From assembly GCA_902795065.1 (NCBI GenBank), contig CADBJR010000003.1, forward strand, positions 1 through 64,000: a stretch of 64,000 nt of DNA. Direction: 5' to 3'. The notes beneath the pieces are model-generated. The model searched no databases, was not told where the DNA came from, and was given only the letters and a program-made list of their open reading frames with translations. Within the stretch, counting starts at the first letter, position 1, and each line of letters begins with the position of its first letter. Made by a program: the position numbers and the translations under genes. Shown here one piece after another: positions 33,854 through 49,094 of this stretch. Origin of the DNA: an uncultured Coriobacteriaceae bacterium. GTDB taxonomy: Bacteria > Actinomycetota > Coriobacteriia > Coriobacteriales > Atopobiaceae.

Positions 33854-36350
33854 ATGACCCGCCGTCTTCGCGTGAAAGACGATCGCCTCGCCGCCGTGCT
33901 CGCAGGGGATGCCTTCCTGCTCTTCGACGGCGCGATGGGAACGCAGCTCCAGGCGCGCGGCCTCGCCGCTGGCGAGCTGCCCGAGCTGCTGTGCCTTTCC
34001 GATCCCGACAAGATCAGCTCGATCCACGCCGCCTACGTCGAGGCGGGTGCCGACGTGGTGACCACCAACACCTTCGGCGCCAATGCGGCCAAGCTCGGAG
34101 ACGCCGCGACGGTCGAGCAGGTCTTCTCCGCGGCGATCGCATGCGCCAAGGCGAGCGGTGCGCCGTACGTTGCCGCAGATCTCGGCCCCACGGGCCAGCT
34201 GCTCGCCCCGCTGGGCACCTGCAGCTTCGACGAGGCATACGGGCTCTTCGCCGAGCAGGTCCGCGCCGCGGATGCCGCAGGCGCCGACCTCTTCATCATC
34301 GAGACCATGGCGGACCTCGCGGAGGCCAAGGCCGCGGTGCTCGCCGCCAAGGAGAATTCCGACCTGCCCATTTTCTGCACGATGACCTTCGCCGAGGACG
34401 GGCGCACCTTCCTCGGCACCACGCCCGAGGTCGCCTCGATCACGCTCTCCGCACTCGGCGTCGATGCGCTCGGCATCAACTGCAGCCTCGGACCCGCGGC
34501 GCTGGTCCCGCTGGTCAAGCGCATGGCCCCGTTCGCGTCCTGCCCCGTGATGGTGCAGGCCAACGCGGGCCTGCCGCGCGTCGAGGACGGGAGGACCGTC
34601 TACGACATCACGCCCGAGGCGTACGTTGCCTCTGTCGCCGAGATGCTCGATTCGGGTGTCACGATCGTGGGCGGATGCTGCGGCACCTCACCCGACTACA
34701 CCGCCGCCGAGCGCCGTCTGCTCGACGGCTGGAACGAGGGCTCGGTGCTCAAGAGCTTCGTCACACGCGCGATGAAGCGTGCACGCGGGAAGCTCGCCGC
34801 GGCGGAGGCGCCCATCACGGTCGCGAGCGCGCAGGAGTACGTGGCGCTCGAGATGGGCCAGGTGGGTGTGATCGGCGAGCGCATCAACCCCACGGGCAAG
34901 AAGCGCCTCAAGGAGGCCCTGCGCACGGGCGAGCTCGACTACGTGATGGGGGAGGCCATCAGGCAGGCATCCTCCGGCGCGCAGATCCTCGACGTCAATG
35001 CGGGTCTTCCCGAGATTGACGAGCGTGCCATGATGCTGCGTCTCTGCTCCGAGCTCTCGGGCGTGACCACGCTGCCCCTCCAGATCGATTCCGCCGACCC
35101 CGCGGTCATCGAGGCCGCCGTCCGCAGCTATCCCGGCAAGGCGCTCATCAACTCGTGCAACGGCAAGCAGGAGGTCCTCGATGCCGTGCTGCCGCTCGCC
35201 GCGCGCTACGGCTGCGCCATCGTGGGTCTCACCCTCGACGAGCAGGGCATCCCCAAGGACGCGTCCGGCCGCCTCGCCATCGCGCGCCGCATCGTCGAGG
35301 CCGCCGAGAAGCTCGGCATCCCGCGCTGCGACATCGCCATCGATTGCCTCACCATGGCCTGCTCGACCGACCAGACCGCTCCGCGCGCCATCCTCGACGG
35401 CATCTCCCTCGTGAAGCGCGAGCTCCCGGGCGTGCGCACGGTGCTCGGCGTCTCCAACATCAGCTTCGGCCTGCCGTTCCGCCCGCTCGTGAACGCGACG
35501 TTCCTCGCCGCCGCCTTCGCCGCCGGCCTCGACCTGGCCATCATGAATCCCAACGACCAGCGCATGATGGACGTCGTCAACTCGTGGCGCGTGCTCTCGG
35601 GCGAGGACGTGTCCGCGCAGACGTACGTGGCGGAGTACGCGAACCGCAGCGACGCGACGGCGATCGCCTCGCCGAAATCGTCGCGCGGCTGCGGAAGGTT
35701 CGCCTCGTGATCCCGGCGAGGTCTCGACGGAGCAGCAGATCCGCGAGCTCGTCCTCGCCGGACGCAAGGAGCCCGTGCCACCGCTTGTCGAGCGTCTGCT
35801 GGAGGACGGGGCTGATACGCTCTCCATCATCAACGACGTCCTCATCCCGGCGCTCGACGAGGTCGGTGCGCGGTTCGAGAAGGGCACCTTCTTCCTGCCG
35901 CAGCTCATGGCCTCAGCCGAGGCGGCCAAGGCGGGCTTCGAGGTGCTGCGCTCCCGCGGCGGCTCGTCGCCCGCATCGTCCGGCAAGGGAAAGATCGTGC
36001 TCTGCACCGTGAAGGGCGACATCCACGACATCGGCAAGAACATCGTGCGCATGCTGCTCGAGAACTACGGCTACGACGTGGTCGACCTCGGGCGAGACGT
36101 CGACCCGCAGGCCGTCGTCGACGCGGTGCTCGCGGACGACGTGCGCCTCGTGGGCCTCTCGGCGCTCATGACCACCACGGTCGCGGGCATGTCCGAGACG
36201 ATCGCGCTGCTGCGCGAGAAGGCGCCGAATGCCAAGGTCATGGTGGGCGGGGCCGTGCTCAACCCCGAGTACGCGCAGATGGTCGGCGCAGACTACTACG
36301 CTAAGGATGCCACCGAGAGCGCCAAGATCGCCCAGGAGGTCCTGGGATAG
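33854..36350 (+). pseudogene. metH: B12-dependent methionine synthase, frameshifted near the domain 2/3 border
   Basis: Domain order: homocysteine methyltransferase (LLFDGAMGTQLQARGL, IVGGCCGTSPDYTA with the zinc cysteines), pterin-binding domain (MGQVGVIGERINPTGKKRLK, LDVNAGLPEIDE, SNISFGLPFRPLVNATFL), then in another frame the B12-binding domain (PALDEVGARFEKGTFFLPQL, CTVKGDIHDIGKNIVRMLLE with the DxHxxG cobalt ligand). The frame changes at about 35685 and the first part ends at 35710. One inserted base would explain it. The activation domain is absent by design; it is encoded at 27842. Confidence 0.85.
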
Positions 36351-39140: not shown

Positions 39141-40499
39141 ATGAACATTGTCATCGTTGGAGCGGGCAAGATCGGTTCCGCCTTGGCCAGGTACCTCGTG
39201 GAAGAGGGCCACAGCATCACGGTCGTCGAGCGCAACCCGGAGCGCGTCTCGCGCATCTCCACCTCGCTCGACGTCATGACCGTCTGCGCGAGCGCCGACA
39301 TCGACTCGCTCAAGCTCGCGGGGGCCGAGGAGGCGGATCTGCTCATCGCCGCCACCGACTCCGACGAATCGAACATCCTCTGCTGCCTCGTGGCGCGCAA
39401 GCTCGGCGCCAAGAACACCGTGGCGCGCGTCCGCTAGGAGGACCACTTCCGCGAGGTGCTCTTCCTCGAGAAGGAGCTGGGACTCTCGCTCGTCATCAAC
39501 CCCGAGCTGGCATGCGCCAACGAGATCAGCCGCGTGCTGCGCTTCCCGTCGGCGACGCAGGTCGATACCTTCGCGGGCGACCGTGCCGAGCTCGTCGAGT
39601 TCAAGCTCAAGGCCGACAACCCCCTCTGCGGGACGACCATCACCGACTACCACGGCGCCTTCGGCGAGGGCACGCTCGTCGCAGCGATCGTGCGCGACGG
39701 CGAGGCCTTCATCCCCACGTCGAAGTTCGTCTTCCGTGCGGAAGACGATGTCCTCGTCGTGGGCTCCCCGCGCAGGATCAGCCGCCTGTTCAAGAAGCTC
39801 GCCATCTTCAAGGAATCCGTTCGCGACGTCATCATCGTGGGCGGCGGCCGCATCGGCCTCTACCTCACGCGCGAGCTCGTCTCCGCGGGCATCGAGGTCA
39901 CCCTCATCGAGAGCAACCGCCGCATCTGCGAGGAGATCAAGGACATGCTCCCACAGCTCGAGGTCATCTGCGACGACGGTACCCAGCCCTCCGTCCTCGA
40001 GGACGCGCGCATCGAGAGCACCGACGCCTTCGTCGCCCTCACCGGCGTGGACGAGATCAACACGATCCTGTGCTCGTATGCCCAATCGGTCGGCGTGGGC
40101 AAGGTCATCGCCAAGGTGAGCGAGGCGCACTTCGTCGACATGGCGTCCTCGTTCGGTCTCGACAAGCCCATCCAGCCCCAGAACATCATCGCCGAGCAGG
40201 TCCTCCAGCACGTGCGCGGCATGGAGAACTCCGCCTACGACAGCGGCGTGGAGCTGCTGCGCCGTGCGATGGACGACAAGCTCGAGGTCCTCGAGTTCGT
40301 TGCCAAGAAGGGCTCCCCCTGCCTCGAGCGCCCGCTCCACGACCTCGAGCTCCGCGAGTCCACGCTCATCGCCGCCATCATCCGCAAGGGGAACTGCATC
40401 ATCCCCAACGGCATGAACACCATCCATGCGGGCGACCGTGTGATCGCGGTCACCACGCGTCCGGGCATGACCTGCCTCGAGGATATCCTGAGGAGCTAG
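39141..40499 (+). pseudogene. trkA: TrkA potassium-uptake regulator with an in-frame amber codon
   Basis: 452 codons if read through. Two RCK modules are visible: NIVIVGAGKIGSALARYLVE and DVIIVGGGRIGLYLTRELVS (Rossmann GxGxxG), each followed by a TrkA-C domain (ALVEFKLKADNPLCGTTI-like and LEFVAKKGSPCLERPL). Codon 99 is TAG (39435-39437), in the ARVR...FREVLFLEKELG segment; homologues have a sense codon there. The frame is otherwise open on both sides. The downstream part could restart at GTG 39456 after AGGAGG (39436-39441), although the 14-base spacing is long. Seven bases before trkH. Confidence 0.85.
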
Positions 40500-40505
40500 G
40501 CAAGC

Positions 40506-41957
40506 GTGAAATCACGAATCGTACTCAGGATCCTCTCGCGCGTCCTCATCATCGAGGCGGGGCTGCTCTGCCTGCCCATGATCTGCGCGGGCATCTACCA
40601 CGAGGACACCGCGCCGTTCCTCAACACCATCGTCATCCTCATGCTCGTCGCGCTGCCGCTCGCCTGGCCGGTGAAAGACCAGAAGATCCGCAGCCTGCGC
40701 GCCGTCGAGGGCTTCGTCTCCGTCGGCCTCTCGTGGATCCTCATGAGCCTCTTCGGCGCCCTCCCGTACGTGTTCTCGGGCACCATCCCCTTCTACATCG
40801 ACGCCTTCTTCGAGACGGTCTCGGGCCTCACCACCACGGGCGCCTCCATCCTGACCGACGTCGAATCCCTGCCGCGCTCGATCCTGTTCTGGCGCAGCTT
40901 CTCGCACTTCATCGGCGGTATGGGCGTGCTCGTGTTCATGATGGCGGTCATGCCGCTCGACGAGGCGCACTCGCTCCACCTCATGCGCGCCGAGATGACC
41001 GGTCCCGTCAAGGGCAAGCTCGTGCCCCGGGCGAGCGACACGGCCAAGATCCTCTACCGCCTCTACATCATCCTCACCGGCACCGAGGTCGTCTTCTTGT
41101 GCCTCGGCGGCATGCCCCTCTTCGACAGCCTCTGCACGGCGTTCGGCACCACGGCCACCGGCGGCTTCGGCGTCTACAACGCGAGCATCGGCTATTACGA
41201 CAACGCCTACCTCGAGATGGTCGTCGCGGTGTTCATGGTCCTCTCGGGCGTCAACTTCAACCTCTACTACCTGGTCTGGCTGCGCCGCTCCTTCAAGAAC
41301 TTCAAGAGCGAGGAGCTCATGGTGTACCTGTGCATCATCGGGTTCGCCACGTTCACCATCGCCTGCAACATCGCCAACCGCGTGGGCGGCTTCCTCCACG
41401 GCTTGCGCCTGTCGTTCTTCCAGGTCGCCTCGATCATGACCTCGACGGGCTTCTCATCGGTCAACTTCGACATGTGGCCGTCGTTCTCGAAGGTCCTGCT
41501 CGTCCTGCTCATGATCATCGGTGCCTGCGCGGGCTCGACGGGCGGCGGTACCAAGGTATCGCGTCTCATCATCATGGTGAAGACCGCCTTCACCGAGCTG
41601 CGCCAGCAGGCCTCGCCGCGCTCCGTCCAGCGCATCACGCTCGACGGCAACCGCCTCGACGAGCTCACCATCAAGACCACCCACATCTACCTCATGATGT
41701 ACGCGTCGCTCGTGGTGCTGTCCTGCCTGTTCCTGTCGATTCAGGGCATCGACCTGATCTCGACGTTCACCTCGACGATCGCATGCCTCTCCAACATCGG
41801 TCCCGGCCTCGGCGCCGTCGGTCCCGCGGGCAATTTCGCATTCTGGAACCCGGCTGCCAAGCTGGTGCTCTCGGGCCTCATGCTGCTCGGCCGCCTCGAT
41901 ATCTACGCGGTCGTCATGCTCTTCTCGCGCCACGTGTGGAAGAGCCTGCTGCGCTAG
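40506..41957 (+). CDS. trkH: TrkH family potassium uptake protein
   Basis: 483 residues with about ten membrane segments in four M1-P-M2 repeats. Filter segments are recognisable as TTTGASILTDVES, FGTTATGGFGVYNASIG, MTSTGFSSVNFD and LSNIGPGLGAVGPAGN. GTG start at 40506. It forms the membrane channel whose gating partner is TrkA, encoded immediately upstream. Confidence 0.93.
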   Translation: MKSRIVLRILSRVLIIEAGLLCLPMICAGIYHEDTAPFLNTIVILMLVALPLAWPVKDQKIRSLRAVEGFVSVGLSWILMSLFGALPYVFSGTIPFYIDAFFETVSGLTTTGASILTDVESLPRSILFWRSFSHFIGGMGVLVFMMAVMPLDEAHSLHLMRAEMTGPVKGKLVPRASDTAKILYRLYIILTGTEVVFLCLGGMPLFDSLCTAFGTTATGGFGVYNASIGYYDNAYLEMVVAVFMVLSGVNFNLYYLVWLRRSFKNFKSEELMVYLCIIGFATFTIACNIANRVGGFLHGLRLSFFQVASIMTSTGFSSVNFDMWPSFSKVLLVLLMIIGACAGSTGGGTKVSRLIIMVKTAFTELRQQASPRSVQRITLDGNRLDELTIKTTHIYLMMYASLVVLSCLFLSIQGIDLISTFTSTIACLSNIGPGLGAVGPAGNFAFWNPAAKLVLSGLMLLGRLDIYAVVMLFSRHVWKSLLR

Positions 41958-42044: not shown

Positions 42045-42467
42045 CTACTCGATGGTGCCGCCGCAGTGCGGGCACCTGGTGGCGCCGGGCTTGACCTCCT
42101 CGAGGCAGTGCGGGCAAACGGGAGCGGGCTCCGCGGGAGCCTCGGGCTCCTCCTTCTTCTTGGCCATGTCCTGCATCCTGTTGAGGGCCTTGACCATGAG
42201 GAAGACGATCCATGCCACGATGAGGAAGTTGATGATGGCGGAGATGAACGCGCCGAAGTCGATGACGGTCTCCTCGTTGACGGGGATCTGCAGCCCGCCC
42301 ACGCCGGCGCCGCCGCCGGTGATGAGGGTGATGAACGGCTGGATGACGTTGCCGACGAGCGAGTTGACGATCGCCGTGAAGGCTCCGCCGATGATCACGC
42401 CGACTGCCATATCCATGACGTTGCCCTTGGCGATGAACGCCTTGAATTCCTCCATGAACTTTTTCAT
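42045..42467 (-). CDS. mscL: Large-conductance mechanosensitive channel with zinc ribbon
   Basis: 140 residues. The MscL core (FKAFIAKGNVMDMAVGVIIGGAFTAIVNSLV and the second span FISAIINFLIVAWIVFLMVK) is followed by an acidic linker and a C-terminal zinc ribbon CPHCLEEVKPGATRCPHCG. The ribbon is a variant seen in some actinobacteria and firmicutes and would sit in the cytoplasm under the channel. The ATG has GAGGAGC upstream. Confidence 0.92.
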   Translation of the reverse strand: MKKFMEEFKAFIAKGNVMDMAVGVIIGGAFTAIVNSLVGNVIQPFITLITGGGAGVGGLQIPVNEETVIDFGAFISAIINFLIVAWIVFLMVKALNRMQDMAKKKEEPEAPAEPAPVCPHCLEEVKPGATRCPHCGGTIE

Positions 42468-43087: not shown

Positions 43088-45265
43088 TCAGCGCACGTCG
43101 TCGTACAGCGTGCTCTCGACGATATCCTTCAGGTGGACGATGATGATGTCATCGGCCAGCTTGTAGTGGGGATTCTTGCCCGAGATGCGCTCGAACATCG
43201 CATCGACCTTCTCGAGCTCGCCGAACGGGACGAGGCAGATGTGCCTCCTCGAGAGGTGATCGCAGTTCTCCTTCTTCACGAGCGTAGCGTTGATCGCCTT
43301 GAGCGCCTCCTCGCCGCAGCATTCGTATCCGAGCGTGCGCATGAACGCGTCCCAGCGCTTGTGCTCGAGCTCCTGGAACGGCTCGCGGTCAATGCCCGAT
43401 GTGACGTAGCGCGTGTATGCCTTGCGCGCCGGCTCGAACTCGGGCGCATCGATCCCCAAGGTCCAGTCGATAACGGAGGGCAGCGCGAACGGGTCGCCGG
43501 GAACGGCGATCTTGCCGTTCGCCACGTCGCGGCAGAACTCGAAGAGGTGGTGCTTGAGGAACAGCGCGGACGCGCGCGAGGAGACCCTGTTGTACTCGAA
43601 GGCGTCGTACTTCCTGCCGGCGCCCTCGCACGTTGCGGCCCGCGTATCTCCGGTCTGGTCGAAAACGCCCCAGTACGCGGCGTTGAGGTTCTTCGCCCAG
43701 CGGTCGAGATCGGGCTGGAAGACGTTGCGATAGGAGAAGAGGGACTCGGTGCTTCCGACCGTGGTGATGTCGTAAGGCTGCTCCTTCGGCGATTCTGCGT
43801 CAGTGACGGAGGCAGCGACAGCCGAGTCGTCGATGACCGTGACGATGGGCGGCCTGGCATAGGCATCCGCCCCTGCCTCGACCCTGCTCCGCTCGAGCAG
43901 CTCGCGGACGCGGCGTGCCGCCTGCGCGGCCACGAGGTCATCGCCCAGCGCGATGAAAACGTACGAGACCTCGCTGCCATGGTCGCGCACGAGCCTTTCG
44001 AAGCTTCCCGAGAAGACGTCGAATTCGTGGAACTCGATGTCGTACGCCTCCGCATGGGGATCGTCGGGATCGCGTTTGCCGATCATGCGCTCGATCTCGG
44101 GGCACTCCAGGGCGAGGCGCTCCCGTGCCTTCCCCGCGGCGAGATCGACGACATCGATGTGCGTATCCGAAGCATTCGACTGGCATGCCCAGATGGCGCC
44201 CTTCAGGAAGGCGGAGCCCATGTTGCCCGACCCGATGACGAGCAGCCTCCTGGCATCGGTCGAGTAGAGGCGCTTCGTGCTGTTCTCCGAGCCGGATCCG
44301 AGCGGGAGGACGTTGAGGAAGACCGGCATCTCCATGAGCACCTGGTTGATGGTGTTCTGGACGTGGTCGAACCTGCGGAAGGCGACGGTTCCGGAGCACT
44401 TCCGGGATGCGGAGTCGGCGAAGCCGTCGGCGAGGCTCGAGGTGGAGAACACGATGACCTCGGAATCTCCCGCCGATTCCGGTTCGGATGCGAGCACCTC
44501 GGTGAGCTTGAGCGATTCCCGGAGGTTCTGCGCCTCGTTCAGGGAGGAGAAGATGAAGCGGCGCCTGCTGGCTGCGGTGCAGCGGGCAGCGAGCTCGGCG
44601 ATCGATCGGTCCGAGCAGATGGCGCCGAGCGTCCTCGCCTCGTCGACGAGCGACTCGTCCGCGCGGTCGATCTCCGCGAAGGCGATGACCGGCCGTCCGC
44701 CCTTCGAGGTGCCATAGTGGGCGAGGATGCTCTTCGCCAAGGTGGTCGAGGAGCTGTTGAGCTCGGAGAACACGTAGGTGTCGTGGCTCTTTGAACGCCA
44801 TGAGAGGGCGGGGGAGGCGAGCAGCGTGAAGAGCATGAAGACCACGGAGCTGAAGGCCGTTGCCGGGGCGAGGACGAAGAGGAGCGATTGGTAGACGAGG
44901 TAGCTCCATGCGACGGCGGGAGGCCATCCGAGGGGGAGGAGGTTCTCCGAGCTGATGCGGGAGCTCCCGTCCAGCGAGACGGTCTGGAGCGCGTCGTGGA
45001 TCGAGTCGAAGAAGCGCGTGGCGATGGAGCCGAGCGAGTACGGCTTCTCCAGGAGGGCGAATCCCTGCGACAGGGCGAGGACGAACGCCAGGACGACGAT
45101 GACCGCGGTCACGATGTAGAGCGGATTCGTGTAGACCTTCCAGAGCCCGGTCGTGCGCTTGCCCCGCTTCCGCCCGATCACGACCGCGGCGATCACGGTC
45201 AGGATCGAAAGCATGATGCCGATGACCAGCGCATTCGGCGCGACGATCATATCAGGAGCGTCCAT
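43088..45265 (-). CDS. Membrane protein with Rossmann (RCK-like) domains and C-terminal RyR-like domain
   Basis: 725 residues. Membrane spans at about 9-30, 50-70 and 118-155. The cytoplasmic part has a first degenerate nucleotide-fold module (DTYVFSELNSSSTTLAKSIL ... FIFSSLNEAQNLRESLKL) and a second with a GxGxxG-like loop (RRLLVIGSGNMGSAFLKGAI ... SYVFIALGDDLVAAQAARRV), both like TrkA-N. The C-terminus, EPFQELEHKRWDAFMRTLGY followed by RRHICLVPFGELEK, resembles the bacterial RyR domain. Predicted role: membrane-bound sensor of a nucleotide-type ligand. Last gene of a minus-strand run with the YbjN-like and AAA-M41 genes. Confidence 0.65.
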   Translation of the reverse strand: MDAPDMIVAPNALVIGIMLSILTVIAAVVIGRKRGKRTTGLWKVYTNPLYIVTAVIVVLAFVLALSQGFALLEKPYSLGSIATRFFDSIHDALQTVSLDGSSRISSENLLPLGWPPAVAWSYLVYQSLLFVLAPATAFSSVVFMLFTLLASPALSWRSKSHDTYVFSELNSSSTTLAKSILAHYGTSKGGRPVIAFAEIDRADESLVDEARTLGAICSDRSIAELAARCTAASRRRFIFSSLNEAQNLRESLKLTEVLASEPESAGDSEVIVFSTSSLADGFADSASRKCSGTVAFRRFDHVQNTINQVLMEMPVFLNVLPLGSGSENSTKRLYSTDARRLLVIGSGNMGSAFLKGAIWACQSNASDTHIDVVDLAAGKARERLALECPEIERMIGKRDPDDPHAEAYDIEFHEFDVFSGSFERLVRDHGSEVSYVFIALGDDLVAAQAARRVRELLERSRVEAGADAYARPPIVTVIDDSAVAASVTDAESPKEQPYDITTVGSTESLFSYRNVFQPDLDRWAKNLNAAYWGVFDQTGDTRAATCEGAGRKYDAFEYNRVSSRASALFLKHHLFEFCRDVANGKIAVPGDPFALPSVIDWTLGIDAPEFEPARKAYTRYVTSGIDREPFQELEHKRWDAFMRTLGYECCGEEALKAINATLVKKENCDHLSRRHICLVPFGELEKVDAMFERISGKNPHYKLADDIIIVHLKDIVESTLYDDVR

Positions 45266-45344
45266 CGTCCCTCTTCCTGGCTAGGGGGATTGCCATTTAT
45301 CCAAGCATTATACTGCCACTCGATCATCCACCGGCATGCAGACG

Positions 45345-45377
45345 GCGGGGCGGCATCCGATCCGGATGCCGCCCCGC
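45345..45377. terminator. Strong 15-bp hairpin between the YbjN-like and RyR genes
   Basis: Perfect stem GCGGGGCGGCATCCG / CGGATGCCGCCCCGC with a 3-base loop, 25 bases past the stop at 45402 on the minus strand. No T-run, so it may attenuate rather than terminate. Confidence 0.6.
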
Positions 45378-45401
45378 TATCGTGAGATGATGCAGCGGAT
45401 G

Positions 45402-45941
45402 CTACTTGGCATCCTCTTCGAGCATGCTCCTGAGAGTCTCGAGCATGGCGAGCAGCTCGTCCTTGCTGGGCGTGTCGGAATCATCTTCCGGGGTGAAGAT
45501 GTCCTTCATCTCGAGCAGGGCGTCCTCGACGATGCCGGACATGCGGAAGGCGTAGTGCGTGCACTCCTTGCCGACGGTGCCGGGGAAGACGATGGCATCG
45601 GCGTCGGCATTGAAGGAGTTGTTGTTGGGGTCGAACCAGATCTTGACCCAACGGTAGCCCTTGTTGAGGGCGTTGATCCTCACGAGCGCCTCGGGGACGT
45701 TGTCATCGGAGCACTTGGCGATGTCGATCGAGGCGAAGTGCACGGTGACGGAGCCGTCCTGCTCGGCCTGCTCGTCGAAGTCGACGAAGAGCTTGGTGTC
45801 GAGCCCGCCGCCATCCTTCCAGCTGCGGCCCGAGAACAACAGCCTCACGAGGTTGTCCTCCTCGTTCAGCACGAGGTACTTGATGCCCTCGGAATCGAAG
45901 TACGAGCACATCTCCTTGAACAGCTCCTCAGGTTTACCCAT
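45402..45941 (-). CDS. YbjN-like protein
   Basis: 179 residues from ATG 45941 (AAAGGAG upstream). The protein has the secretion-chaperone-like fold pattern of YbjN: KEMCSYFDSEGIKYLVLNEE, FDEQAEQDGSVTVHFASIDI, ALVRINALNKGYRWVKIWFD and DADAIVFPG. An acidic C-terminus follows. Such domains bind other proteins. It lies 60 bases after the AAA-M41 gene on the same strand, so it may be an adaptor or chaperone for that protein; this is inference. Confidence 0.65.
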   Translation of the reverse strand: MGKPEELFKEMCSYFDSEGIKYLVLNEEDNLVRLLFSGRSWKDGGGLDTKLFVDFDEQAEQDGSVTVHFASIDIAKCSDDNVPEALVRINALNKGYRWVKIWFDPNNNSFNADADAIVFPGTVGKECTHYAFRMSGIVEDALLEMKDIFTPEDDSDTPSKDELLAMLETLRSMLEEDAK

Positions 45942-46000
45942 TTCCCACTCCTTTTCTCTTCGGAGAGCGGCGCTCCCTTGATCCACAGGTTGATGCGGCG

Positions 46001-49000
46001 CTACGCTCCGCCGCCGGGCTTGCACGCCTCCCAGATCGCGAGCAGCTCCTCGCCGGTCAGCGTGGCCTTATCCTTGAGGGCGGCGGTGATGGCGTCGATG
46101 GCAGGCCGGCACTCCTCGATGCGGCGCTTCGCCTCGTCGTGGCATTCGTCAAGCACCCTATGCATGGCTGACAGCGTCTCCTTGGGGAGGGAGTTCAGAT
46201 CGACGCCGTGCGACTTCGGGCTCACGAACTGCACGAGGCCAGCGTCGGACATGCCGTAGGTTCCCACATACCGCGCAGCATGGTAGGTCGCCTTCTCGAG
46301 ATCGGACGAATTGCCGGCCGAGAACGATCCGAAATAGACCTCTTCGGCAGACATTCCTCCGAGCAGGCAGACGAGCTCGTCGCGGAGGTTCTTTGACGTG
46401 GGGAGCATCATGCCCTTGCCCTCGTGCTGGACATAGCCGAGCGCGCCGTTGCCCTCGTGCTCCACGGTGATGAGCACGATGTCGGTCTTCCCCGTCGCCG
46501 CGAGGCGGCAGACGGCATGTCCCGCCTCGTGGACCGAGACCCGCTTGAGCGCGGCCTCCTCCTCGTCGTCGGTGCAGTCGAGCACCTCCGTCGCCGAGAG
46601 CTCGCAGAGCCGCTTGATGGTGGGGAGCGCCTCCGTCGAGATGAGCTCGGGGTGCTCGGGGTCGTAGCATCCCGCATGGGTGGCGATCAGCTCCTGGATG
46701 TAGCGGTCGACGAAGCGGCCGTTTCCGAAGTCTCGACGCTGTGGAAGTAGCGGAACGCATCGTGCGCGCCACCCTCCACGCCCTCGCCGAGCTCGAAGCC
46801 AGCCTTCTCCATCTTGCGGCGGAAGATCTCCAGCAGATCGTCGGCCCCGTAGTCCTCGAAGTCGAACGTGTAGCCGATGCGGCTCGCGAGGCAGGGGTTC
46901 TCGTCGATGAAGGCGCGCATCTCGCGCTGGTATCCGGCGAACATGACCACGATCTCGCCCTTGTGGTCCTCCATGCCCTTCACGAGCACTGCGAGCGCCT
47001 CGCGGCCTCCGGCATTCTCCATGAGCGCATAGGCCTCGTCGATGAACAGCACGCCGCCCATCGCCCGGTCGAGCACCTTGCCGGTCTCCTTCGCAACGCC
47101 CGCCCGCGATGAGTTCAGAAGGTCCTTCGCCTGGATCTCCTCGAAGTGGTTGCTGGGCACCGCGCCGATGTTGTAGAGGATGGACCCGACGATCCGTGCC
47201 ACGGTGGTCTTGCCGGTGCCGGGGTTGCCCTGGAACACCATGTTGAGGTTGAGGTCCGGGACGTCGATGCCCGCCTTGAGCGCTACCTCGCGGAATGCGA
47301 CCGTGCGCTCGAGCGCGAGCACCTCCTCCTTGACGATGCCGAGCCCTACGAGCGGTTCGAGCATATCCTCGGCGGACCGGGCCTTCCAGTCGATGGCGTC
47401 GAACATATCCTGGCGGGTGGGAACAACGTCGACGGTGATGGTGAGGTATTCCGGGGAGGTGTTCGCCGTCATCCCCGTGAAGTTTCGCGCATGGTTGACG
47501 AGCGCTTTCTGCAGCACCTCCATCACGAAGCGTCCGTTGCCGAAGCTCTTGAAGCGGCTGAAGTAGGCGAACAGGCGCCTGAGCCTGTCCTCGACGCCCT
47601 CGCCGATCGAGAATCCGGACTTCGTGACGTTGATCCTGAAGATCTGGAGCAGCTCCTCGACGGAATAGTCGTCGAAATGGAAGGTGTAGCCGATGCGGCT
47701 CGCGAGGCCGGGATTCGCGTCGACGAGCCCCTGCATCTCCTTCTCGTAGCCTGCGAAGATGACGATGAGGTCGTCTTTGTGGTCCTCCATGCCCTTGATG
47801 AGCTCGGCGATCGCCTCGGCACCATAGCCGACGCTGTCCTCGCCCTGCGGCATGAGCGCATACGCCTCGTCGATGAACAGCACTCCGCCCAGGGCCTCCT
47901 GGATCTTGTCGTAGACCATCTTGTTGGTGTTGCCCACGTACTTGGCGATGAGGTCGCGTGCCGACGCCTCGATGAACTTGCTGGATTTGACGATGCCGAT
48001 CTTGTAGAGCATCCGTGAGATGAGTCTGCCGACCATGGTCTTGCCGGTGCCGGGGTTGCCTTGGAAGAGCATGTGCAGGTTGCTTGAGGGAGGGGTGCTC
48101 CCGTGTCCCTTGGCGCGTTTCATGAACGTCGCGTACTGCTCGAGGCCCCTGATGGTCTCCTTGACGTTCTCCAAGCCGACGATCTCGTCGAGCATGTCGT
48201 CCAGCGACGAGCTCGTGTGGCGGTCCTTCGGGAGGATGAGGTGGCCCGAGGCGTTCGCCTCCTTGGAGAGGTAATCGGCGAGCTCCGCGCCCTTGAAGGC
48301 GAGGATGTCGCCGTTGAACTCGACGAAGTCCTTGAACCTTGCGCGGAACTCATCGGTGATCTGCGGTTTGAGGTCGTCCTCGAGGTTGCTCATGAACTCC
48401 TTGAGCACGCCGCTCGCGTCCATGCCCTTGAGGAAGACGATGTTCTCCCCGAACGTCGGGGCGAGGACCTTGTGGGAGCGGATGAGCCCCTCGACTTCCT
48501 CCGTCGTGCCCACAAGCAGGATGTACCTGTCGTCGACGATGCGGCTGAGCGCGCTGATGAACGAGTTGACGAGGGTGTCGGGCATGCCTCAGGGGGGAAG
48601 GCGCCGAGCGCATCGACGATGAGGAGCTTCCCGATATCGAGGGCGTTCTTCTCCTCGCTGGATCCGGAGACGAGCGCGGAGCCGACATTCTGGCACAGGG
48701 GTGTGATGCCGACGCGCCTGAGCGCCTTCCTGCTCTTGAGCTTGCCGAGCCCCACGAGCATGTCCATGAGGTCGTCGATGAACTCCTTGAGATGGAAGTC
48801 GTCCTCGACGATGAGGGCACCTGAGAAATCGTCCTCGCGCTTGCTGCTGAGCAGGCGGAACACGCGGTCGAGGCCCTCTGTGCGCGGCGCCCATTTCTCG
48901 TAGAAGGCGCTCGTGTCGAACGCTTCGGACTCATCCTTCGCCGTCGTGGAGGGAGCCGCCACGCTTGCATCAGCGCCCTTCGCGGGGGCTCCTCCGTCTT

Positions 49001-49094
49001 CGGGGGTCGTGTCGGATCGGCCATCTTTGGAGGCGCCTTTCCCCTCCATCACCGATTTGATGCCTGCCAGGAGCTTGGGGTCGATGTCGGCCAT
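46001..49094 (-). pseudogene. AAA+ (CbbX/SpoVK-type) protein fused to an FtsH-type M41 peptidase, two frameshifts
   Basis: About 1030 residues when joined. Order: charged N-terminus; a degenerate AAA-like module (GKLLIVDALGAFPPE, DRYILLVGTTEEVEGLI); AAA1 (FQGNPGTGKTMVGRLIS, GGVLFIDEAYALMPQ); AAA2 (FQGNPGTGKTTVARIVGS, GGVLFIDEAYALMEN), both CbbX/SpoVK-like; then an M41 peptidase domain with SVHEAGHAVC (HExxH) and LLGGMSAEEVYFGSFSAGNSSDLEKAT (third zinc ligand Asp). There is no membrane anchor, unlike FtsH. Frames break at about 48590 and 46741, each consistent with one missing base; in both places the homologous sequence resumes at once (second: FGNGRFVDRYIQEL). Confidence 0.75.

Follow-up and report, generated by a model that had tools for sequence, protein, structure and literature searches.

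An AAA+–M41 protease with a YbjN-like partner, and a neighbouring RCK–RyR membrane protein, in a Coriobacteriaceae bacterium

Gene content and sequence quality of the locus

The window analysed here is a 64,000-nt stretch of contig CADBJR010000003.1 from an uncultured Coriobacteriaceae bacterium. As a first-pass annotation had read it, three genes lie on one strand (minus) between 43088 and 49094. They form two modules: an AAA+–M41 protease with a YbjN-like small protein, and an RCK–RyR membrane protein. We are highly confident of the domain facts of both modules. The features are:

46001–49094, minus strand: AAA+–M41 protease gene, split over three frames (ORFs, Pfam, tblastn)
~48231–49094, minus strand: N-terminal AAA-like region, putatively ATPase-dead (weak; collinear hhalign)
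~47386–48230, minus strand: AAA1, AAA+ domain
~46740–47385, minus strand: AAA2, AAA+ domain
~46001–46570, minus strand: Peptidase_M41 (Pfam)
48592–48597, minus strand: first frameshift in the protease gene, at a C6 run; the match to relatives passes from frame -3 (residue 183) to frame -2 (residue 185)
46728–46734 (~46731), minus strand: second frameshift in the protease gene, about one base short; the match to relatives passes from frame -2 (residue 804) to frame -1 (residue 806)
45402–45941, minus strand: YbjN-like small protein, 179 aa (ORF; orthologues match PF10722; predicted TY-chaperone-type fold)
45345–45377, minus strand: perfect 15-bp inverted repeat in the YbjN–RyR gap, a strong hairpin without a T run
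45307–45312, minus strand: TATAAT box 5' of the RyR gene, read in the sequence; no -35 match
43088–45265, minus strand: 725-aa membrane protein with three predicted TM helices, putative tandem RCK-type domains and an RyR-like domain
43736–44788, minus strand: tandem RCK/gating-ring region, residues 160–510 (VIA-align on a low-confidence model)
43112–43408, minus strand: RyR-like domain, residues 620–718, with H635, W638, H675 and D705 (profile homology, pocket residues)

In the window the protease gene is a composite of three frames and not one ORF. When intact relatives were aligned to it by tblastn, the match ran in frame -3 to residue 183, in frame -2 for residues 185–804 and in frame -1 for residues 806–1043, and almost no coding sequence was lost at the two breaks. 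With two frameshifts the gene could be a decaying pseudogene and the unit a relic in this organism, but we consider this very improbable: the breaks are of a single base with no sequence lost, one of them falls at the C6 run, all motifs of the protease are intact, and the housekeeping TrkA gene nearby (39141–40499, plus strand) has an in-frame TAG as well, near 39437. A further plus-strand gene at 33854–36350, which we take to be metH (cobalamin-dependent methionine synthase), is divided between two frames, with the break near 35710. Because these two genes are also interrupted, indel and base errors in the contig are the simplest cause, and the two single-base frameshifts are probably sequence errors.

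The protease and YbjN genes are separated by 59 bp, and the YbjN and membrane protein genes by 136 bp. The wider gap holds the hairpin (folding z -5.5) and the TATAAT box, which is possibly the RyR gene's own promoter; a promoter scan found no full promoter site. The hairpin and the box together suggest that the RyR gene may be transcribed separately, and because of them the three genes are not taken here as one proven operon. Rfam gave no match within the locus.

The genes near the unit are MscL, TrkA–TrkH (39141–41957), an M32 peptidase and DTD, none of them defence genes, and PADLOC returned no defence-specific match. A suspected defence-island location was dropped since the flanks are housekeeping genes. 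As a separate observation, the product of the MscL gene (42045–42467, minus strand) carries at its C-terminus a segment resembling a zinc ribbon (Pfam Zn_Ribbon_1, E = 2e-4, under the curated cut-off), which is unusual for a mechanosensitive channel.

The AAA+–M41 protease and its YbjN-like partner

Pfam clearly recognises the M41 domain in the window protein (E = 6e-27), and an intact relative carries two AAA and AAA_lid_6 domains and Peptidase_M41 in one polypeptide. In NCBIfam the AAA+ part scores 414 bits against TIGR02881 (stage V sporulation protein K), slightly under the equivalog cut-off of 423, with 345 bits for CbbX and 328 bits for EccA; FtsH_fam is matched only via the M41 stretch. 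A profile search against the PDB gave CbbX (3syk) at 3e-74 and EccA1 at 1.6e-61, and the best FtsH chains align through positions 913–1092, the M41 part. The window protease keeps Walker A and B in both AAA+ domains, AGY, NPGxxSR, HExGH and the third-ligand Asp (GNSSDL). Two signs of the SpoVK/CbbX/EccA clade are both present: sensor-1 has GY, and an Asn precedes the Arg finger. We take the +4 residue of CbbX to be Arg; in the AAA+–M41 family it is A, S, K, E or V. AAA1 of the window protein, like that of most relatives, has the aromatic pore loop YVG. The AAA2 pore loop is lost in the window protein and in genomes G134 and G123; G053 has kept it and lost the AAA1 loop, and the two f2 relatives have kept both. 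Over its first 250 residues the protein can be aligned collinearly with AAA1 and lacks a P-loop (hhalign E = 4e-4, probability 36%), which lends weak support to an ATP-dead AAA+ domain in this region.

Like FtsH, the family combines an M41 domain with HExGH and a third Asp ligand and an AAA+ motor on one chain. Unlike FtsH, it has no TM anchor (most intact proteins, among them those of L036, L037, L039, L041 and L042, have no predicted TM segment), it carries two AAA+ domains and a putatively dead AAA-like region, and its AAA+ domains are those of the SpoVK/CbbX/EccA clade. With the chaperones of that clade it shares the best profile and PDB matches, the GY at sensor-1 and NPGxxSR; it differs from them in being fused to a peptidase. 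A survey describes the clade as having no peptidase fusion or association (Delerue et al., 2023; PMC10659427). Judged by its sequence, the AAA+–M41 family is a peptidase fusion within this clade. The soluble AAA+ protease-like protein of the earlier reading is borne out by the M41 match, the AAA+ motifs and the lack of predicted TM segments, with the amendment that its gene is split by two frameshifts.

The family was found in ten genomes, eight in the window's family and two in another family of the same order, with intact relatives of 1,026–1,178 aa in the nine genomes besides the window's. A family M41 profile separates the members (248–364 bits) cleanly from FtsH (<=121 bits). Genome sampling for the fusion covered Actinomycetota, and 396 sampled actinobacterial genomes yielded no AAA+–M41 genome beyond those already known; gene calls in the relatives came from a custom codon-usage caller. 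A plasmid and phage search with the protease returned CbbX/SpoVK-like or FtsH-like proteins separately, and no fusion.

A YbjN-like gene directly adjoins the protease gene in 9/10 genomes across two families, G065 being the only one without it. It lies downstream in seven genomes, upstream in G123 and divergent in G053. The orthologues match PF10722 at E = 1e-4 to 1e-12, three of them pass its cut-off, and one also matches TY-Chap1 (Pfam). The window protein does not reach the PF10722 cut-off: the small chaperone-fold protein first proposed is recognised through its orthologues, but Pfam misses the window protein itself. The YbjN family profile found no match among PDB chains. The protein resembles the YbjN/TY-chaperone family (PF10722, PF22551) in the Pfam matches of its orthologues and in size, and differs in being paired with an AAA+ protease. 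YbjN relatives fold like the chaperones of type III secretion (PMC5398634, PMC3575483), and TY-Chap proteins, which are related to YbjN, are found in ADP-ribose-centred conflict systems (PMC9503650). Because of the chaperone-type fold of its relatives and the presence of TY-Chap in ADP-ribose-centred systems, the YbjN-like protein may, by analogy, be a substrate adaptor of the AAA+–M41 protease.

Several relatives' loci hold further genes. The AAA-M41/YbjN/RyR cluster of G134 (L036, 1621–16065) has a gene for a type IV secretion coupling protein in its vicinity. The cluster also contains a DUF3846 gene, a NUDIX-like gene and a DUF2357-like protein whose C-terminus is nuclease-like; it is likely part of a mobile element. 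In G053 (L041, 9024–16374) the genes after AAA-M41 encode a protein that resembles nucleoside deoxyribosyltransferases, with the sequence 'KCFVIGPIG', and a DUF285 repeat protein. In the second family (L062, 351–1421; L063, 12523–13557) a WYL-domain regulator gene is directly upstream of AAA-M41.

The RCK–RyR membrane protein

The membrane protein is predicted to have three TM helices (residues 12–30, 48–66 and 128–146), followed by two Rossmann-like regions and a C-terminal RyR-like domain. The RyR and TrkA-N folds named in the first-pass annotation have no Pfam match in the window protein: the RyR cut-off (PF02026) is passed only by an Arcobacter relative, and TrkA_N gives no match in the window protein up to E 10. 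The assignment is made by transitivity, because of the RyR matches in the PDB, the putative gating-ring fold and the Arcobacter relative. A profile of the C-terminal domain matches RyR chains in the PDB, 6uhi at 1.6e-9 (a value inflated by its two copies) and the single domains 4n05 and 3nrt at ~1e-3. The relative on an Arcobacter plasmid is found by the family profile at E = 4e-11 and 2e-8, and itself passes Pfam cut-offs in two adjacent genes, TrkA_N at 5e-9 and RyR at 4e-10. AlphaFold, run on two input sequences, produced low-confidence models of each of the two proteins submitted to it; that of the membrane protein has a pLDDT of 40. With this pLDDT 40 model the best Foldseek matches include Slo1 channels over the whole length (E = 3e-4), and VIA-align, over residues ~160–508 of the same low-confidence model, ranks CASTOR (Z 11.3), TrkA (Z 11.1), DMI1 (Z 10.9) and GsuK (Z 10.4) at the top. 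An hhalign comparison of the second Rossmann region with the window's TrkA was set aside, the match being limited to the GxGxxG stretch. No relative was found in the viral contigs searched.

Like CASTOR/DMI1, GsuK, TrkA and Slo1, the protein appears to have a TM region followed by tandem RCK domains. It differs from them in lacking a recognisable K+ selectivity filter (the alignment has no TVGYG-like stretch between TM2 and TM3) and in its C-terminal RyR domain. RCK domains are often nucleotide sensors, and MscL (42045–42467) and TrkA–TrkH (39141–41957) are neighbours in the window, so that the locus could serve ion or osmotic homeostasis, the RCK–RyR protein adjusting the flux of K+ or another ion by NAD(H)/ATP, like TrkA, and the protease acting in envelope quality control. 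We regard this as distinctly unlikely, since MscL and TrkA–TrkH do not recur at the relatives' loci inspected, whereas TIR genes do.

The phage protein RyDEP binds and cleaves 2'/3'cADPR via H75, W78, H100 and D117, which are conserved in animal RyR Repeat12 (PMC13232231). From their order and the HxxW spacing, rather than from a structural superposition, H635, W638, H675 and D705 of the window protein would be the respective counterparts. They are conserved in 24/25, 24/25, 23/25 and 20/25 members. The domain shares with RyDEP and RyR Repeat12 the nucleotide-pocket residues (HxxW, the second His and the Asp) as well as profile similarity; here, however, it ends a bacterial membrane protein of gating-ring type, whereas RyDEP is a phage evasion protein and the animal RyR is a giant Ca2+ channel. 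The catalytic dyad of RyDEP (H, D) has its counterparts in H635 and D705, the founding RyDEP cleaves 2'/3'cADPR, and 6/8 other tested phage homologues bind these signals (PMC13232231). The RyR domain might on these grounds be a RyDEP-like enzyme or sponge that removes ADP-ribose-type signals and so ends TIR signalling instead of executing it. This too seems improbable: the other tested RyDEP homologues showed no signal cleavage (PMC13232231), and the TM and gating-ring frame fits a receptor. RyR–TrkA proteins have possibly been mentioned before in the comparative-genomics literature on nucleotide-centred conflict systems.

Gene partners of the RCK–RyR protein and a proposed scheme

The RCK–RyR gene lies <=5 kb from AAA-M41 in four of the six genomes with both (G000, which is the window's, and G123, G134 and G084), against 0.04 expected; P is ~3e-8, or 3e-6 without G123, assuming, as for all linkage P-values here, random gene placement and independent genomes. 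The protease-linked RCK–RyR proteins sit on separate branches of the RyR tree. The AAA-M41/YbjN/RyR order, whose conservation the first-pass annotation had named as a check, differs in three of these genomes: YbjN-AAA faces RyR in G123, and the orders are RyR-AAA-YbjN in G084 and YbjN-RyR-nuclease-AAA-YbjN in G134. The three-gene unit it had described holds as gene linkage (9/10 for YbjN and 4/6 for RCK–RyR), but the hairpin and TATAAT box make co-transcription of all three genes doubtful. Its membrane sensor controlling proteolysis is conjectural: the protease–YbjN pair has no RyR gene beside it in four genomes (G096, G122, G282 and G302), and RCK–RyR adjoins TIR genes more often than the protease.

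The same four genomes, the variable gene order, the occurrence of RyR mostly without the protease, and the intergenic hairpin and TATAAT box would also fit unrelated neighbours, that is, a protease–YbjN proteostasis pair next to an independently transcribed RCK–RyR gene. We judge such a chance arrangement rather unlikely, as the proximity is seen in 4/6 genomes with both, in four arrangements and on separate RyR branches. It is gene linkage that would suggest a direct link of RCK–RyR to proteolysis, and direct physical coupling of the protease to the channel is unlikely.

A TIR gene lies <=6 kb from RCK–RyR in 9/25 genomes (G048, G064, G069, G070, G125, G126, G127, G129 and G132), against 0.54 expected (P = 2e-10, under the assumptions given above). 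This link was conceived on the first loci; loci added afterwards and other phyla bore it out. The neighbouring TIR proteins are mostly of (zinc ribbon)–TIR–TM–beta-propeller architecture and keep a W-x-x-E motif, whose Glu presumably corresponds to the catalytic residue of NADase TIRs. Among 140 family genomes, 16 have both RCK–RyR and TIR-propeller genes, 7 and 15 have just one of them, and 102 have none (Fisher p = 7e-8, phylogeny not corrected for). In Butyrivibrio (Bacillota), the gene for the sole plasmid match of the window protein immediately follows a TIR gene with the architecture given above. There is no TIR gene beside the window genes; the window's genome carries its one TIR-propeller gene in trans, at G000:C18:53385–56741 (E = 3e-224), which is a different contig, and outside G123 the nearest tree neighbours of the window RyR protein are TIR-linked proteins. 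As in Thoeris, RCK–RyR genes recur beside TIR genes with the W-x-x-E motif; unlike Thoeris, there is no SLOG, macro or other known Thoeris effector, and the window locus is without a TIR gene. In these associations, RCK–RyR as a receptor or effector of a TIR-type nucleotide signal is better supported than a sensor controlling proteolysis.

Some of these observations extend beyond the window. The pair of (zinc ribbon)–TIR–TM–propeller and RCK–RyR genes recurs at loci L045, L046, L076, L077, L079, L081, L048 and L087, and it may form a TIR signalling system in its own right, apart from the window locus. Locus L089 (MT835673.1), filed as a bacteriophage and probably mis-filed, has an RCK–RyR gene among bacterial-looking genes with no TIR gene adjoining. 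On the Arcobacter (Campylobacterota) plasmid the RyR gene is followed by a DUF4062 gene, and in G084 a DUF4062–NUDIX gene precedes RyR. The Arcobacter row of TrkA_N, RyR and DUF4062-TPR (L097, 4979–8702), with a restriction system and an integrase adjoining, is a candidate defence unit.

We propose that the two linked modules may serve a stress or defence response. A TIR-propeller protein, encoded in trans, would sense trouble and produce an NAD-derived signal, and the C-terminal RyR domain would bind this ADP-ribose-type signal. Binding would alter the tandem-RCK gating ring, under which the 3-TM pore region lies, leading to ion leak and growth arrest. The tandem SpoVK/CbbX-type AAA+ ring would pass substrates to the fused M41 zinc protease, with the YbjN-like protein as substrate adaptor or chaperone, and the protease module would clear specific client proteins or reset the channel. 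The coupling might take the form of a protease that resets the channel, one that degrades host or phage clients, or an independent arm. The sequences themselves show the domain content, the intact catalytic and pocket residues, the conserved linkage and the TIR or DUF4062 neighbours in three phyla, whereas we infer the identity of the signal, the channel activity, the adaptor role and the contact between the modules. Against the scheme stand the frameshifts in the window protease gene, the hairpin and TATAAT box, the missing K+ selectivity filter, the lack of a TIR or defence gene beside the window locus, the four genomes in which the protease–YbjN pair has no RyR neighbour, the PADLOC result and the low confidence of the structure model. 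As a whole, the reading of the membrane protein as a channel-like receptor that answers to an ADP-ribose-type signal made by TIR and is coupled to a dedicated AAA+ protease is tentative, about evenly balanced though slightly on the doubtful side. The more general proposal, that a cyclic ADP-ribose-type signal from TIR–TM–propeller sensors opens the RCK channel via RyR and that this is coupled in some Coriobacteriia to AAA+–M41/YbjN, is conceivable but more doubtful.

The AAA+–M41 protein adds a peptidase fusion to an AAA+ clade that reportedly lacks them, and its YbjN partner is conserved; such a protease with a YbjN-like helper is apparently new to the literature. TIR or DUF4062 genes with RCK–RyR form a cross-phylum gene pair, which would bring a receptor with an RyR domain into the TIR signalling of bacteria. 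If true, a bacterial TIR-to-RyR axis would be a forerunner of the animal cADPR–ryanodine-receptor link, and the direct action of ADP-ribose signals on channel RyR domains could become testable in a simple bacterial system.
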